Notes under the pieces: generated by a model
What the model was told of the DNA's origin: nothing
The model's input: only the letters and a program-made list of their open reading frames with translations
Databases searched by the model: none
Part shown: positions 5,069 to 63,446 of the stretch, piece after piece
How the letters are laid out: each line of letters starts with the position of its first letter
Position numbering within the stretch: the stretch's first letter is position 1
Translations under genes and position numbers: made by a program
From: Anaerococcus hydrogenalis DSM 7454
GTDB lineage: Bacteria; Bacillota; Clostridia; Tissierellales; Peptoniphilaceae
DNA length: 64,000 bases
Direction of reading: 5' to 3'
Assembly (NCBI RefSeq): GCF_000173355.1
Contig: NZ_ABXA01000012.1
Location: 1 to 64,000 of the forward strand

Positions 5069-5781
5069 TGGCAAGCATATATGGAAGAAAATCTGTACTT
5101 GAAACCATTGATGCAGGGGAAAATATAAAAAAAGCCCACATCCTTGATAACAAGGGTAAAAATCACAAGTTAATTGATAAGATTATAAATAAATTAGAAG
5201 ATAAAAATGTGCCAATATTTTTTGAAGACAAGGATTATTTTTCAAAAATTTCTGGCAACCACCAAGGTGTTGAAATCGAAGTAGAAGATTACAAATACAA
5301 GGACTTGGATGATTTAAAAGATAAAAAAAGACTAATGATTTTAGATCAAATAGAAGATCCCCACAATCTTGGTGCAATAATTAGAAGTGCAGAGGCCTTT
5401 GGATTTGATGGAATAGTTATTTCAGAAAGAAGATCTGCTAAAGTAAATTCAACAGTATATAAGACAAGTGCCGGAGCAATCAACAACATAGACATAGCCA
5501 TGGTTAAAAATATAAATAGGGCCATAAAAGAAATAAAAGAAGAAAATTTTTGGGTTTATGGACTAGCTGGAGAAGCTGATGGCGATATTACCCAAACAGA
5601 TCTTACAGGAAAAATCGCCCTAGTTGTTGGTAATGAAGGAAAGGGACTTTCAAGACTTGTAAGAGAAAATTGCGATGGACTAATAAAAATACCCATGCTT
5701 GGCAAAATAAATTCATTAAACGCATCGGTAGCAAGTGCAATCGCAATCTATGAAAGTCTAAGACAAAATGGCTTTAACTAA
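5068..5781 (+). CDS. rlmB: 23S rRNA 2'-O-methyltransferase RlmB (TrmH/SPOUT family)
   Basis: A SAM-dependent SPOUT methyltransferase expected to methylate the ribose of a 23S rRNA guanosine (G2251 in E. coli). The 237 aa contain an N-terminal substrate-binding domain (GRKSVLETI), then DQIEDPHNLGAIIRSAEAF, GNEGKGLSR and NSLNASVASAI, the three TrmH motifs that form the knot. It is coupled to cysS by a one-base overlap and to the next gene by a 14-base overlap. Confidence 0.95.
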   Translation: MASIYGRKSVLETIDAGENIKKAHILDNKGKNHKLIDKIINKLEDKNVPIFFEDKDYFSKISGNHQGVEIEVEDYKYKDLDDLKDKKRLMILDQIEDPHNLGAIIRSAEAFGFDGIVISERRSAKVNSTVYKTSAGAINNIDIAMVKNINRAIKEIKEENFWVYGLAGEADGDITQTDLTGKIALVVGNEGKGLSRLVRENCDGLIKIPMLGKINSLNASVASAIAIYESLRQNGFN

Positions 5782-7389: not shown

Positions 7390-7673
7390 AGCTTAAAAAC
7401 GCCCCTGTGTGGGCGTTTTTAATATTTATCCCGCGAACGAAACCGAAGATGAAAAATTCTGCAAAATAAATCTTTATGCTAGTTTATTAAAAAATGAGTG
7501 ATAAGTTAGCGTTAATTAGCTTAAAAACGTGCCAGTGGCACGTTTTTAATATTTATCCCTCGGACTAAAACAGAGAATTACAAAAAGCAAAATAAAATAC
7601 TATGCTAAATTATTAGAAAAAGAGTGATAAATTAGAGTGTAAATTAGCTTAAAATCGTGCCAGTGGCACGATT
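7390..7673. repeat. 128-bp tandem repeat, each unit carrying a terminator hairpin
   Basis: The motif AGCTTAAAA recurs at 7390, 7518 and 7646, an exact 128-base period. Each unit starts with a hairpin: GCCC..GGGC at 7395-7420, GTGCCAGTGGCAC at 7523-7547 and at 7653-7673. The first two have T runs. The rest of each unit (TATGCTA..TTATTA..GAGTGATAA) is also conserved. The third unit is interrupted by MITE copy B. This fills the gap after the sigma gene and contains no ORF. Confidence 0.75.
7395..7420 (+). terminator. Terminator of the gltX-sigma operon
   Basis: A-run, ACGCCC, short loop, GGGCGT and a T run directly after the sigma-factor stop codon. A second hairpin of the same type at 7523-7547 backs it up. 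Confidence 0.85.
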
Positions 7674-7844
7674 CAGAATGTAGACAAAGTGTGAATGTGG
7701 ATAATAATTTATTAAAAAATAAAAATTAAGCTATATACCATCTCGACTAAGTGAGTGAAACGAACGCACGGAGAGATCTCATGAGATTTCTCCGCTCGTT
7801 ACACTCGGTCGAAATGGTCAAATTTTTAGTTTGTAAGCAGCCTG
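7674..7844. mobile_element. MITE-like element, copy B, beside a duplicated terminator hairpin
   Basis: This 171-bp unit starts CAGAATGTAGACAAAGTG and ends TTTGTAAGCAGCCTG, matching copy A at 425-592 along its length. Its flanks are near-identical 21-base hairpins, AATCGTGCC..GGCACGATT, at 7653-7673 and 7845-7865. Only the right copy keeps the T run, so insertion appears to have duplicated the terminator stem-loop. The centre (7737-7817) is the same large palindrome as in copy A. Confidence 0.7.
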
Positions 7845-7972
7845 AATCGTGCCATAGGCACGATTTTTAAATTCATAAATAAAAAAATCTCAAAAATCAA
7901 AAGTTTAATCAAGCCCATATCGGGTAAGCTCTTAATAAGAATGTTTCTACAAAAAATGAAAGGAGATTGTTC

Positions 7973-20507: not shown

Positions 20508-21050
20508 ATGAACAAATTAACTACAAAAAAAATTACATATACAGGACTTTTTATCGCCCTAGTTTTTATTTTCTCAGCATTTTTCCAAATTCCATTAAAA
20601 ACTCCAATGGGAGATACAAGATTTCATTTGGGAAATGTATTTTGTCTTTTAGGTGGAATAATTTTAGGACCAGGACTTGGTGGCCTTGCTGCAGGATTGG
20701 GATCTGCAATTTTTGATTTAACAAATCCACTTTATTTCGCATCAGCTCCATTTACATTTATAAATAAATTTATGATGGGCTTTGTAGCAGGTTTAGTTTT
20801 TCATAAGGTAAAAATGAAAAATGAGAAATTAAGAGCTGCCCTTGCAGGCTTATGTGGACAAGTAACCTATATTGTTCTTTACCTACTTTATACTTTCATA
20901 AAAAATAAAGTAGCCATGGGCTTATCATTTGAAGCAAATATGGTAGAAGTTGTACAAAAACTTGGAGTTTCCTCAATAAACGGAATAATTTCAGTAATAG
21001 TTGCTGCTATATTTTCAATTGCAGTTTCAAAAAGAGTAAAAATGGACTAG
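20508..21050 (+). CDS. ECF transporter substrate-binding (S) component
   Basis: A 180-aa integral membrane protein with about six segments and the S-component pattern: KKITYTGLFIALVFIFSAF, then GDTRFHLGNVFCLLGGIILGP and GLGGLAAGLGSAIFDLTNP. It would bind a vitamin or trace compound and work with a shared EcfAA'T energising module that is not encoded here. The ATG at 20508 follows GGGAGGGG. The substrate is not evident and there is no riboswitch in front, unlike the RibU gene at 55962. Confidence 0.85.
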   Translation: MNKLTTKKITYTGLFIALVFIFSAFFQIPLKTPMGDTRFHLGNVFCLLGGIILGPGLGGLAAGLGSAIFDLTNPLYFASAPFTFINKFMMGFVAGLVFHKVKMKNEKLRAALAGLCGQVTYIVLYLLYTFIKNKVAMGLSFEANMVEVVQKLGVSSINGIISVIVAAIFSIAVSKRVKMD

Positions 21051-21065
21051 AAATAGTCCTTTTTT
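21044..21065 (+). terminator. Terminator overlapping the ECF stop codon
   Basis: GGACTA, loop GAAA, TAGTCC and six Ts. The stem begins inside the last codons. Confidence 0.88.
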
Positions 21066-21115
21066 AAATGCTGATTTTTTGTTTTTTATCTTAAATTTAA
21101 TTTTTTTATAAAATC

Positions 21116-21196
21116 AATACTTCGTAATGTTAGGGCGGAGGAAATGGGGGAGTTTCGATTCTCCCCCTTTTTCCTCCCCCTAACATTACGAAGTAT
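21116..21196. repeat. 81-bp GC-rich inverted repeat, unexplained
   Basis: The left arm AATACTTCGTAATGTTAGGG continues as CGGAGG..GGGGGAG. The right arm is its near-perfect complement, with an 8-base loop (TTTCGATT). It is far richer in G/C than its surroundings and is not followed by a T run. No other copy was noticed. Confidence 0.8.
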
Positions 21197-21319
21197 TAAA
21201 AAATAATTGTAATTTAGTATATTATAAAAATTTAATTTTAAAAATCAACAACTATCTTTTATTTGGGTATAATGTTTAAAGAATGTTTAAGTTAAAAGGA
21301 AAAATGAAAGGATTTTTTT

Positions 21320-21767
21320 ATGGTTTATAAAAGATTTGGTGATAAGTTAGTTATTAGATTAAAAAAAGGCGACAAACTTGTGGAATCTGTTAGGGAAATT
21401 CTTGAAAAGGAAAATGTTAAGGCAGGTTTTTTGACAGGAATTGGTGCTACAGATAATCTTGAGGTTGGTCTTTTTGATCCAAAAACTAAGGATTATAATA
21501 TAAAAAAAATATGAAGAAGATTTAGAGATTGCAAATCTTTGTGGAAATATTTCAAATAAAGATGGAAAACTTTATACCCACTTTCATATAACTTGTGGAA
21601 GGGTAGAGGATAATGCCCAAAAAGGACAAATTCCAGGATCTGCTATTGGTGGTCATTTAAACGAGGCTATTATTTCTTTGACAGCAGAAATTTTTGTAAC
21701 AATTATTGATGGGGATATCAATAGGGTTTATGACGAAGATTTGGGATTAAATTTAATTGAGTTTTAA
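21320..21767 (+). pseudogene. PPC (DUF296) domain protein, frameshifted as read
   Basis: The start MVYKRFGDKLVIRLKKGDKLVES leads into EILEKENVKAGFLTGIGATDNLEVG, the PPC/DUF296 fold. After the A8 run at 21502-21509, removing one A gives YEEDLEIANLCGNISN, then the metal-binding pattern HFHITCG and GGHLNEA. The corrected protein is about 148 aa, the size of stand-alone bacterial PPC proteins, whose function is poorly known. One base separates its stop from the following HAD gene, which is probably co-transcribed. Confidence 0.82.
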
Positions 21768-39744: not shown

Positions 39745-39932
39745 AAGAGATCTCTCGACAGGCTCGAGATGGGGTATGTATTTACCTATTTTTATTTACT
39801 ATGAATGGAGTTAAATTAAGCTTAAAAATATTAAAAGGATTATAATAAAACTTAGAATGATTATTAGCCTTATACTTTAGCAATCAAACAAGGAAAATCA
39901 AACCCCATCTCGAGCGAAGTCGAGAGATCTCA
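39745..39932. repeat. Dispersed palindromic repeat unit (paired ends)
   Basis: Left end AGAGATCTCTCGACAGG..CTCGAGATGGG and right end CCCCATCTCGAGCGAAG..TCGAGAGATCTC, with TTTAGCAA inside the right arm. It occupies the 500-base gap between TraX and HppA. Confidence 0.85.
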
Positions 39933-42258: not shown

Positions 42259-42432
42259 AGAGATCTCTCGACTGGGCTCGAGATGGGTTATACTTCGTTT
42301 AGTTTATATTAACGTAAATAAATAATTAATTATAAAGTCAATATGAGAATATTGAGAAAACAAGAACTTTAGTAATAAATCAAAAAGAGCTATTACCCAT
42401 CTCGAGCGAATGTAATGAGTCGAGAGATCTCA
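42259..42432. repeat. Dispersed palindromic repeat unit, tandem copy 1
   Basis: Left end AGAGATCTCTCGACTGGG..CTCGAGATGGG and right end CCCATCTCGAGCGAA..AGTCGAGAGATCTC. The unit and its left flank recur 267 bases later (TAATCCAAGGTAAAAAT at 42218 and 42485). Confidence 0.85.
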
Positions 42433-42524
42433 TTCAAGAAGTAAAGCGAGATAAAAAGTAAATATTTAAAGAAATATCCTTAAATAATCCAAGGTAAAAA
42501 TGGATTATCATCACAATACAATCC

Positions 42525-42770
42525 AGAGATCTCTCGACAAGCTCGAGATGGGTTATACTTCGTTTGTCTTATTATAAATGTAAATAAATAATTAAATAAA
42601 AGTCAATATGAGAATATTGAGAAAATAAGAACTTTAGCAATAAAATAAAGACAATAATCACCCATCTCGAGCTGATAAATATGCCTTGATTTGGCATATT
42701 TATCCCTAAAACTAGTGAAAAACACGGAAAAGTTTGCGAAGCAAACGAGTTTTAGTAGTCGAGAGATCTC
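42525..42770. repeat. Dispersed palindromic repeat unit, tandem copy 2, nested hairpins
   Basis: As copy 1, but the right-end loop is enlarged. It holds GATAAATATGCC..GGCATATTTATC, then CTAAAACT..AGTTTTAG enclosing GTTTGCGAAGCAAAC. Copies 1 and 2 fill the gene-free stretch between HppA and KdgT (42043-42993). Confidence 0.85.
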
Positions 42771-45165: not shown

Positions 45166-45337
45166 CTGCTTTTTTTAATTTGTAAAGTTTTAGGTTTATT
45201 TAGAGCTTAAACTGCAATAAGCCCAAAACCATATCGAGAGAAGAAGTTATTTGAGATTTATGAATTAATGATGGATTTAATTTATTTTTGCTTTATGATT
45301 TCTATGTTTAAAATTAATATTAGCCTTAAATAATCCA

Positions 45338-45506
45338 TGAGATCTCTCGACTACTCTCGAGATGGGTAAATATGGTATTTATTTTAATGCTAAAGTTTGT
45401 ATTTTTAAAAAGATTATAAATTTTTACTTATTTATAAAATTTTAATATAAAATTAAAAACGAAGCGAAACACATCTCGAGGGAATGAAATGAGTCGAGAG
45501 ATCTCT
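45338..45506. repeat. Dispersed palindromic repeat unit (paired ends)
   Basis: Left end TGAGATCTCTCGACTA..CTCGAGATGGGTAAATATGG and right end CATCTCGAGGGAATG..GTCGAGAGATCTC, with GCTAAAGTTTGTATT inside. Its interior is the uninterrupted counterpart of the unit at 46155-47045. Confidence 0.85.
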
Positions 45507-45580
45507 TTATTAATTTTGAATTTTAATTTATTTTTTACCTGTGAAATTTCAATTTAATAGTTAACGATTCTTTAAAATGA

Positions 45581-51512: not shown

Positions 51513-51549
51513 AATTTGAAACTTTAGCAATTAAATAAGATAAAAATAA

Positions 51550-51628
51550 ACCCATCTCGAGTGGATAAACAACCGTTGATTCGGTTGTTTATCCCGATTT
51601 ATCATATGAAACGAGTGGAGAGATCTCA
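51550..51628. repeat. Solitary right end of the palindromic repeat with nested hairpin
   Basis: CCCATCTCGAGTGGATAAAC..GAGTGGAGAGATCTC. The loop has ACAACCG..CGGTTGT then CCCGATTTATC, as at 46970 and 62841. ACTTTAGCAATTAAA precedes it. No left partner is seen between it and 47152. Confidence 0.7.
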
Positions 51629-51704
51629 TAAAAAATTAAGAATAGAGAAAAATAGGATCGTAGATAATTCAATGAAAAGAAACATTGATTTCTAAAATTA
51701 ATAA

Positions 51705-51945
51705 AGAGATCTCTCGACTGGGCTCGAGATGGGTTTAATTATTTGATATATTCAAATACTTCGAATTATTTAAAAAAATATATAAATAATTACTAAGAAA
51801 GCCATGATTTTATAATAAATACATAAAATTCAATCTTAAATTAAAAAAGAACTTATAACTTCCAAAAACAAAAATTAAACTTTAGCAATTAAAAATCAAA
51901 ACTCATAACCCATCTCGACTGACCGTAGGGAATGGAGAGATCTCA
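51705..51945. repeat. Dispersed palindromic repeat unit (paired ends)
   Basis: Left end AGAGATCTCTCGACTGGG..CTCGAGATGGG and right end CCCATCTCGACTGACC..GGAGAGATCTC, with AAACTTTAGCAATTAAA inside. It occupies the gap before the CPBP gene. Confidence 0.8.
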
Positions 51946-55754: not shown

Positions 55755-55783
55755 TTGAAAAAATATTTTTATGCTATTATATA
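55755..55783 (+). promoter_or_regulatory. Promoter of the riboswitch-ribU transcript
   Basis: TTGAAA at 55755 and TATATA at 55778 with a 17-base spacer, immediately before the FMN aptamer. Confidence 0.5.
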
Positions 55784-55784
55784 A

Positions 55785-55894
55785 ATATCTTCAGGGTGAG
55801 GTTAGATTCCTAACCGGCGGTAAAGTCCGCGAGTTTTTACTGAATGGGTGTAATTCCCATACCGACAGTTATAGTCTGGATGAGAGAAGATATT
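55785..55894 (+). promoter_or_regulatory. FMN riboswitch
   Basis: The RFN element core is clear: ATATCTTC..GAAGATAT closing helix, AGGGTGAGGTTAGATTCC, CTAACCGGCGGTAAAGTCCG and CGACAGTTATAGTCTGGATG. It binds flavin mononucleotide and should switch off the downstream riboflavin transporter. The expression platform is the terminator at 55917-55938. Confidence 0.96.
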
Positions 55895-55916
55895 CTTTTT
55901 ATGAGAAATTATTTAA

Positions 55917-62659: not shown

Positions 62660-63446
62660 AACCCATCTTGTGTGAACAAAGTGAGTGAAGATATCTTATA
62701 TTAAAATTAAATATTAAAAAAATTATACTTTAGTAATAAATCAAATAAAACCCTCACCCATCTCGACCGAACAAAGTGAGTGGAGAGATCTCTGTATTAA
62801 ATTAATCCAAAAATAAAATTTAGCCTTTAGCAAATAAAAAAAGAGATCTCTCTACATGCGCTCTGCACGATAAATCGGGATAAACAACCGAACTCAACGG
62901 TTATTTATCTAGTCGAGATGGGTTATTATTGTACTTATTTATTGGCTAAAGTTTAAATTATTAAATATAAAAAAATCAAAAGTAAATCCGTATATATCGA
63001 GTAAAGTAAGTGGAGCAATCCCATGAATAAAATTAATACAAAATAGAACCTAAACTTTAGTAACTAAAGTAAATATAATCAAACCCCATCTCGAGCCTGT
63101 CGAGAGATCTCTGTATTAAATTAATCCAAAAATAAATTTAGCTTTTAGCAAAGAAAAATGAAAGAGATCTCTCCATGCGCTTCGCTTAGTCGAGATGGGT
63201 AATTGCCTTATGTATGTAAAAGCTAAAGTTAAATTTTTAAAAGATTTAGGAAATATTTTTAAAGAAGTTTTAAAATCAAAATAAAAATAATTCTTTAGTA
63301 TTAAAAATAAGACAAAGATACACCCATCTCGAGCTTGTCGAGAGATCTCTGTATAAAATAAATCAAAAAATACAACTTAGCCTTTAGCAAAAAAACAATG
63401 AAGATTTTTCACACATTCCATTTATTTTCGTTTAGCCGAGATGGCT
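62660..63446. repeat. Cluster of dispersed palindromic repeat ends
   Basis: Seven or eight ends lie in a row. Right-type: 62660-62699 (diverged), 62757-62792, 63084-63113. A left-type with nested ACAACCG..CGGTTAT hairpin at 62841-62922 is followed by a diverged right end near 62990-63025. A paired unit spans 63162-63350, and a diverged left end lies at 63401-63446. Between right and left ends the linker TTAATCCAAAAATAAA..TTTAGCAAA recurs. No ORF is present. Confidence 0.8.

Follow-up and report, generated by a model that had tools for sequence, protein, structure and literature searches.

A solo hairpin in Anaerococcus hydrogenalis as the probable remnant of a two-ended palindromic element from a hairpin family of Clostridia

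Introduction

The window considered here, i.e., the whole stretch of 64,000 nucleotides from contig NZ_ABXA01000012.1 of Anaerococcus hydrogenalis DSM 7454, harbors an 82-nt palindrome between two genes, which raises the question what kind of element this is and how it came to stand there. The initial annotation had offered several ideas, among them a very stable RNA structure and a small mobile element from another genome. The odd palindrome turned out to be tied to a conserved structured motif that occurs across several lineages of Clostridia, gut species included; the window copy is modest, and the family is the part of interest.

The window hairpin and its neighboring genes

The site is composed of the following features:

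20508..21050, + strand: upstream gene, ECF-type riboflavin transporter S component (PF07155)
21044..21059, + strand: terminator-like hairpin GGACTAGAAATAGTCC followed by T6, located ahead of the element and still overlapping the 3' end of the upstream gene
21081..21114, no strand: left AT-rich outer arm, possibly a continuation of the terminal inverted repeat
21116..21197, no strand: solo hairpin of 82 nt, with left arm 21116-21152, loop TTTCGATT 21153-21160 and right arm 21161-21197
21135..21189, + strand: region matched by R1, the hairpin model for Clostridia at large (46 bits, E 2.1e-10 within the own genome)
21178..21184, + strand: CCCTAAC, presumed deletion junction, where left-end hairpin sequence switches to the outer end
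21219..21252, no strand: right AT-rich outer arm
21245..21273, + strand: promoter-like site of the downstream gene, located past the element (by consensus match only)
21320..21767, + strand: downstream PCC-domain gene (PF03479, DUF296-like), with the frame interrupted near 21500 in the present assembly

With 37 nt in each arm and an ungapped complementarity of 86% around the 8-nt loop, the near-perfect inverted repeat described initially is borne out, except that it ends at 21197 and not at 21196. As RNA the hairpin folds with -60.7 kcal/mol (z -13.8) and its other strand with a z of -12.8, and in neither case did any of 200 shuffles equal this stability, so that the fold of the window hairpin is far beyond chance; a stable RNA structure is possible. 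The symmetry may extend to about 21081-21252 via the outer arms, which are 71% complementary, a value that AT-rich DNA could partly give by chance, and the 172 nt including these arms, folded as DNA, reach a z of -11.0 that is mostly the contribution of the inner hairpin.

On the + strand an inner 7-bp hairpin, GGGGGAG-loop-CTCCCCC, is directly followed by TTTTT and was flagged as terminator-like. The earlier statement that there is no T run therefore holds for the full hairpin, inside whose arm the T run lies, but not for the inner one. That the window hairpin is an intrinsic transcription terminator is nevertheless very improbable, since the T run belongs to the right arm and is mostly paired in the full fold, the upstream gene already has a terminator-like site of its own at 21044-21059, and, judged by eye, a T run is no feature of the family outside Anaerococcus.

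In five sister species the PCC-domain gene has an intact frame of 148 aa, and therefore its break in the window is either a real frameshift or an assembly error; the broken frame covers 64 aa and is located near an A-rich run around 21500. Promoter-like sites number five in the region, with 2.2 expected. Elsewhere in the window, an FMN riboswitch (55783-55895) is the sole match at Rfam gathering level, and a second dispersed palindromic repeat family is present, with arms GTCGAGATGGG / CCCATCTCGAC as well as GAGAGATCTC palindromes:

7651-7867, 39762-39915, 42276-42565, 45328-45516, 51535-51749, 62711-63094: copies of the second palindromic family

Copies in the own genome and in the genus

Within the window the hairpin is indeed lone, as noted initially, but the claim of no second copy does not extend to the genome. 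In this draft of 1.89 Mb (52 contigs, 84% complete) there are four further elements with the window hairpin, one on contig C22, one on C6 and two on C43, which contains a fragment in addition. In these other copies the hairpin forms the left terminus of a longer element and is followed there by a C-rich linker, CCCCCTGCAAMCGACC, more hairpins, an AT-rich middle and a right end that is inverted and has a hairpin as well; a right end is recognizable in both C43 elements and in neither the C22 nor the C6 copy.

A blastn-type search retrieved the hairpin from eight of 61 genomes including the own one, every one of them Anaerococcus, and the covariance model R1 detected the family in 20 of 31 Anaerococcus genomes. 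Contigs of named Anaerococcus species share these elements, together with their flanks, with the other genomes of the genus. Searched with R1 under a strict filter with 12 candidates per genome, a phylum-wide sample gave matches in two of 398 genomes, the own genome among them. The initial annotation had proposed to search the genome, phages and plasmids for the arms: the genome copies were found, and the queries tried gave no match to phages (two queries) or plasmids (one query). An exact pattern scan of viral contigs yielded two stretches. Many copies of the A. vaginalis group have a nested insert of ~170 nt (CACGCTAACTT...ATTATATCCCC) in the arm of the end hairpin, seen in the loci L034, L039 and L043 and, as a fragment only, in L010 (around 5530-5605), and its presence or absence varies between species at the same site.

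The same site in sister species

At the ECF/PCC site, the sister species contain a two-ended element with outer ends CTTCG and CGAAG that are 432-894 nt apart; in the window they are 74 nt apart. The spacing is 559 nt in G001, 432 nt in G009 and 546 nt in G008, all three free of gaps, and 814 nt in G003 (368 N) and 894 nt in G030 (437 N), in which the middle of the element and the greater part of one hairpin are hidden by the Ns. All five of these sisters, which have the site on one contig, show both outer ends, and in the sixth sister, G007, the element at the site is split over two contig ends. Since all six close sisters in which the site is visible have an element there, the copy is old and vertically inherited at this place, and an arrival of the window copy from another genome, as suggested initially, finds no support. 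The more distant G023 has no element at this site, and its spacer is too diverged to align an exact empty site; neither a target duplication nor a clean empty site could be aligned.

Clustering of 29 loci by their flanks assigned the close-group copies to four syntenic sites and two single loci. The mean distance is 0.261 between same-site copies, 0.300 within species and 0.282 for the remainder, a comparison that covers the 26 of 28 loci with a cap match and is uninformative for dating. As same-site copies are scarcely closer to each other than different-site copies, inter-locus exchange or repeated insertion has also shaped them.

Origin of the solo form

From 21116 to 21184 the window does not differ in a single position from a left-end hairpin that G008 has at another site, and after 21184 ATTACGAAGTATT, the outer end of an inverted copy, replaces the interior GACCCCC. 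The 3' arms of the left and right hairpins are direct repeats with CCCTAAC common to both at the junction, and a deletion between these arms gives exactly the structure of the window. It is therefore likely, with a probability of about 0.7, that the window feature is the solo end-hairpin of an ancestral two-ended palindromic element, the interior of which was lost in this lineage. The deletion route that we infer starts from an element between the ECF and the PCC gene that would predate the split of the A. vaginalis-group species. Because each end hairpin is near-palindromic, the 3' arm recurs in like orientation in the hairpin of the other end, and slippage or recombination between the direct arm copies could delete everything between them. 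The product would be one hairpin with both outer ends, comparable to the origin of a solo LTR, and thus a simple route for the decay of a two-ended element. The copies, their synteny and the two-ended relatives are directly observed, and a second one-hairpin form is present in A. porci/G023, where it stands upstream of a gene that we take to be proC.

An adapter or assembly artefact had been considered from the beginning. The own genome is fragmented, and several contigs of other genomes end in these elements, so that a full element could in principle have been collapsed to one hairpin in the draft. However, the junction is continuous within a 90-kb contig with unique flanks, the shared string of 7 nt suffices for it, and the solo form of G023 is comparable. 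As the family is present in many independent genomes and a 7-nt repeat would appear too short to mislead an assembler, an artefact is unlikely, and such a collapse in particular is scarcely credible.

A hairpin family in diverse Clostridia

The core of the family is a loop TTYCGATT on a covarying GC-rich stem, followed by the tail CCCCNNNAAACGAC, and it recurs in diverse Clostridia. When one genome per species was scanned for exact matches to GGGGAGTTTCGANNCTCCCC, 73 stretches were obtained, i.e., 19 in Anaerococcus, 53 in Oscillospiraceae, Caccovivens, Tissierellia and further Clostridia or Bacillota metagenome assemblies, and one in Helicobacter (L130), which is without the tail and looks like chance. 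The tail, which was outside the search pattern, is present in 42 of the 49 non-Anaerococcus matches having 80 nt downstream and in 12 of 20 Anaerococcus matches, compared with 0.8% and 0.5%, respectively, after mononucleotide shuffling. Seven of the eight Anaerococcus matches that miss it have the nested ~170-nt insert in the right arm, and the eighth is the solo hairpin of A. porci. The AAACGAC tail is also absent from the window copy. Searches of open-licence full texts gave no paper on the sequence strings of the family or on REP, MITE or palindromic repeats in Anaerococcus or Clostridia, and the core hairpin family is apparently undescribed.

Covariation was assessed in an alignment, A3, to which 44 selected loci contributed 65 matches (60 distinct rows). 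All nine stem pairs changed on both sides, and the 83 doubly changed cells compare with a shuffled mean of 27.6 (none of 500 shuffles was as high), in an alignment fitted to R1, which favors covariation; in the 20-row start set the GGGGAG stem was fixed by the search pattern. The true register outscores every slid register. The stem occurs as GGGGAG/CTCCCC, GGGGAC/GTCCCC, AGGGAC/GTCCCT and GGGGCG/CGCCCC, and the loop reads TTTCGATT in 48 and TTCCGATT in 10 of the 65 matches. Only 2 of the 85 changed standard-pair cells are one-sided, and thus G-U intermediates are nearly absent; the arms could be kept perfect by template switching at the DNA level. For the downstream hairpin hp3 the support is moderate, with 43% of 46 cases reaching 7 bp or more, compared with 13% of mononucleotide shuffles.

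The family is non-coding, dispersed and mostly located 3' of genes. Its placement was evaluated from 74 exact-core sites, of which 22 inside ORFs were set aside after simple ORF calling (three of these ORFs exceed 1 kb, and the other 19 are under 0.5 kb and probably spurious). The upstream neighbor is codirectional in 32 of the 43 sites with a call (p 0.002, related copies all counted). Where both neighbors were called (n = 34), 25 pairs are codirectional, eight convergent and one divergent, with the orientation classes +E+ (18), +E- (8), -E- (7) and -E+ (1); the bias of +E+ over -E- has a p of 0.04, again with related copies all counted. In the single-module type of gut Clostridia, the cap follows a same-strand ORF, 33-81 nt past its stop codon, in seven of ten instances scored, two of them orthologous, with the added loci L257-L259, which are without a pattern match, left out. 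This position shortly past stop codons would be compatible with a role as 3'-UTR RNA.

The family might thus be a structured RNA, i.e., 3'-UTR hairpins or small RNAs that stabilize, process or terminate transcripts, and the window copy a truncated RNA motif. The covarying stem with its invariant loop and linker, the position of the gut-type cap and the orientation bias would all fit. In contrast, the window copy has a terminator-like site on one side and the promoter-like site of the following gene on the other, G-U intermediates are almost missing, and other Anaerococcus elements have terminal inverted repeats and IS interruptions. Moreover, Rfam 15 gave no gathering-score match at the elements, with the window searched at gathering level and five loci of the own genome and eight of other Clostridia at E-value level. 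Matches below gathering score were mainly to microRNA precursors. The best of them, 42.9 of 86 bits for mir-627 on the window hairpin (E 9e-7) and 90.4 of 200 bits for MIR839 on L076 (E 8e-17), are read as the likeness of any long hairpin to microRNA precursors. Taken together, we regard the structured RNA as rather unlikely.

The conserved loop TTYCGATT, the C-rich/AAACGAC tail and the freely covarying stems, all directly seen in the alignments, suggest a factor that binds a folded single strand, which may be lagging-strand DNA or RNA. Tentatively, and with less than even confidence, we propose that these folded single-stranded elements of Clostridia are recognized by a dedicated putative factor, neither a Y1 transposase nor a known riboregulator, which would amplify, homogenize and collapse the elements in otherwise vertically inherited sites.

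Terminal repeats and the search for a transposase

Elsewhere in Anaerococcus the element ends reach further out, to a terminal inverted repeat, RTRTCTTWTATTT...CTTCG, which G020, G027 and G029 have in inverted orientation at either end. The corresponding pattern, which was derived from such elements and counts overlapping matches twice, matched nine times in G029, nine times in G027 and 13 times in G020 on both strands, compared with 0-1 in the reversed control, and there was no excess over the control in G000, G017 and G024. We infer past mobility, as we infer the recognition of a folded strand. The initial idea of a small mobile element was the nearest guess as far as a dispersed, two-ended, non-coding repeat is concerned, and goes further than the data as to movement itself.

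The paired ends examined included neither a gene-bearing version nor an autonomous copy, and no coding partner of the family was found. In L138, inward ends more than 1 kb apart enclose an HTH_38+rve transposase, presumably IS30-like, and in L204 a pair of IS21 IstA/IstB type is located inside (IstB by Pfam); both are IS insertions and not an autonomous parent. L216 and L253 each comprise two separate elements around host genes, and the ends of L104 face outward. In one gut Clostridia genome, the same sequence TGTACTAGTCAACAAAAACTGGACAC interrupts three copies (L091, L102, L129) at different points, which suggests that the hairpins are landing sites for IS elements.

PF01797 (Y1_Tnp) was matched in the own genome and in four of ten motif-bearing genomes, and was not found in the other six, e.g., A. 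vaginalis ATCC 51170, several of these being incomplete metagenome assemblies. A RAYT was rejected as mobilizer on account of these six genomes and of the Y1 ORF of the own genome, which is flanked by a different repeat. This Y1/RAYT-like gene (238 aa, L146:1150-1866) lies between short inverted repeats of the GGGGACG type, and possibly both together represent a CGTC-tagged REP system.

Comparison with known repeat systems

What the window contains is best seen as a decayed, solo representative of a family that is REP/BIME- or MITE-like. REPs and BIMEs are described as palindromic, extragenic and dispersed repeats that often form inverted pairs and are found mostly 3' of coding regions, where the neighboring genes are codirectional or convergent (PMC3733652); terms such as Firmicutes or Anaerococcus do not occur in that source. 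The family resembles them in being palindromic, extragenic, dispersed, often paired and mostly downstream of genes, with 33 of 34 sites between codirectional or convergent neighbors. It differs in size, with a hairpin of 82 nt and full elements of ~0.3-0.9 kb compared with 20-40 bp, and in its tag, since the conserved unpaired tail is CCCCNNNAAACGAC and no GTAG or CGTC was seen by eye. Furthermore, positive genomes have 1-18 R1 matches (17 genomes), whereas REPs usually exceed 100 copies per genome (PMC2817692). REPIN/RAYT and IS200/IS605 systems, which rely on a Y1 transposase in the same genome and have subterminal hairpins, likewise have hairpin ends that could be recognized as folded single strands (PMC6006769, PMC8266576). 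In the family, no Y1 transposase or RAYT is obligatory. Because of size, tag and the lack of a link to RAYTs, the family should not be filed as REP.

With MITEs it shares the short, non-coding form, several loci per genome and terminal inverted repeats, the latter on the basis of G020, G027 and G029, as the outer arms in the window are just 71% complementary and AT-rich. It differs from them by its elaborate conserved internal hairpins, and no parent transposon was found among the paired ends inspected, nor a target duplication at the site of the window copy. BOX, Correia and bcr1 elements are, like the family, modular structured intergenic repeats; they belong to other taxa and are set beside it here by description. 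With its motif present also in genomes for which the search detected no Y1 transposase, the family is a test case for REP-like spread without RAYTs.
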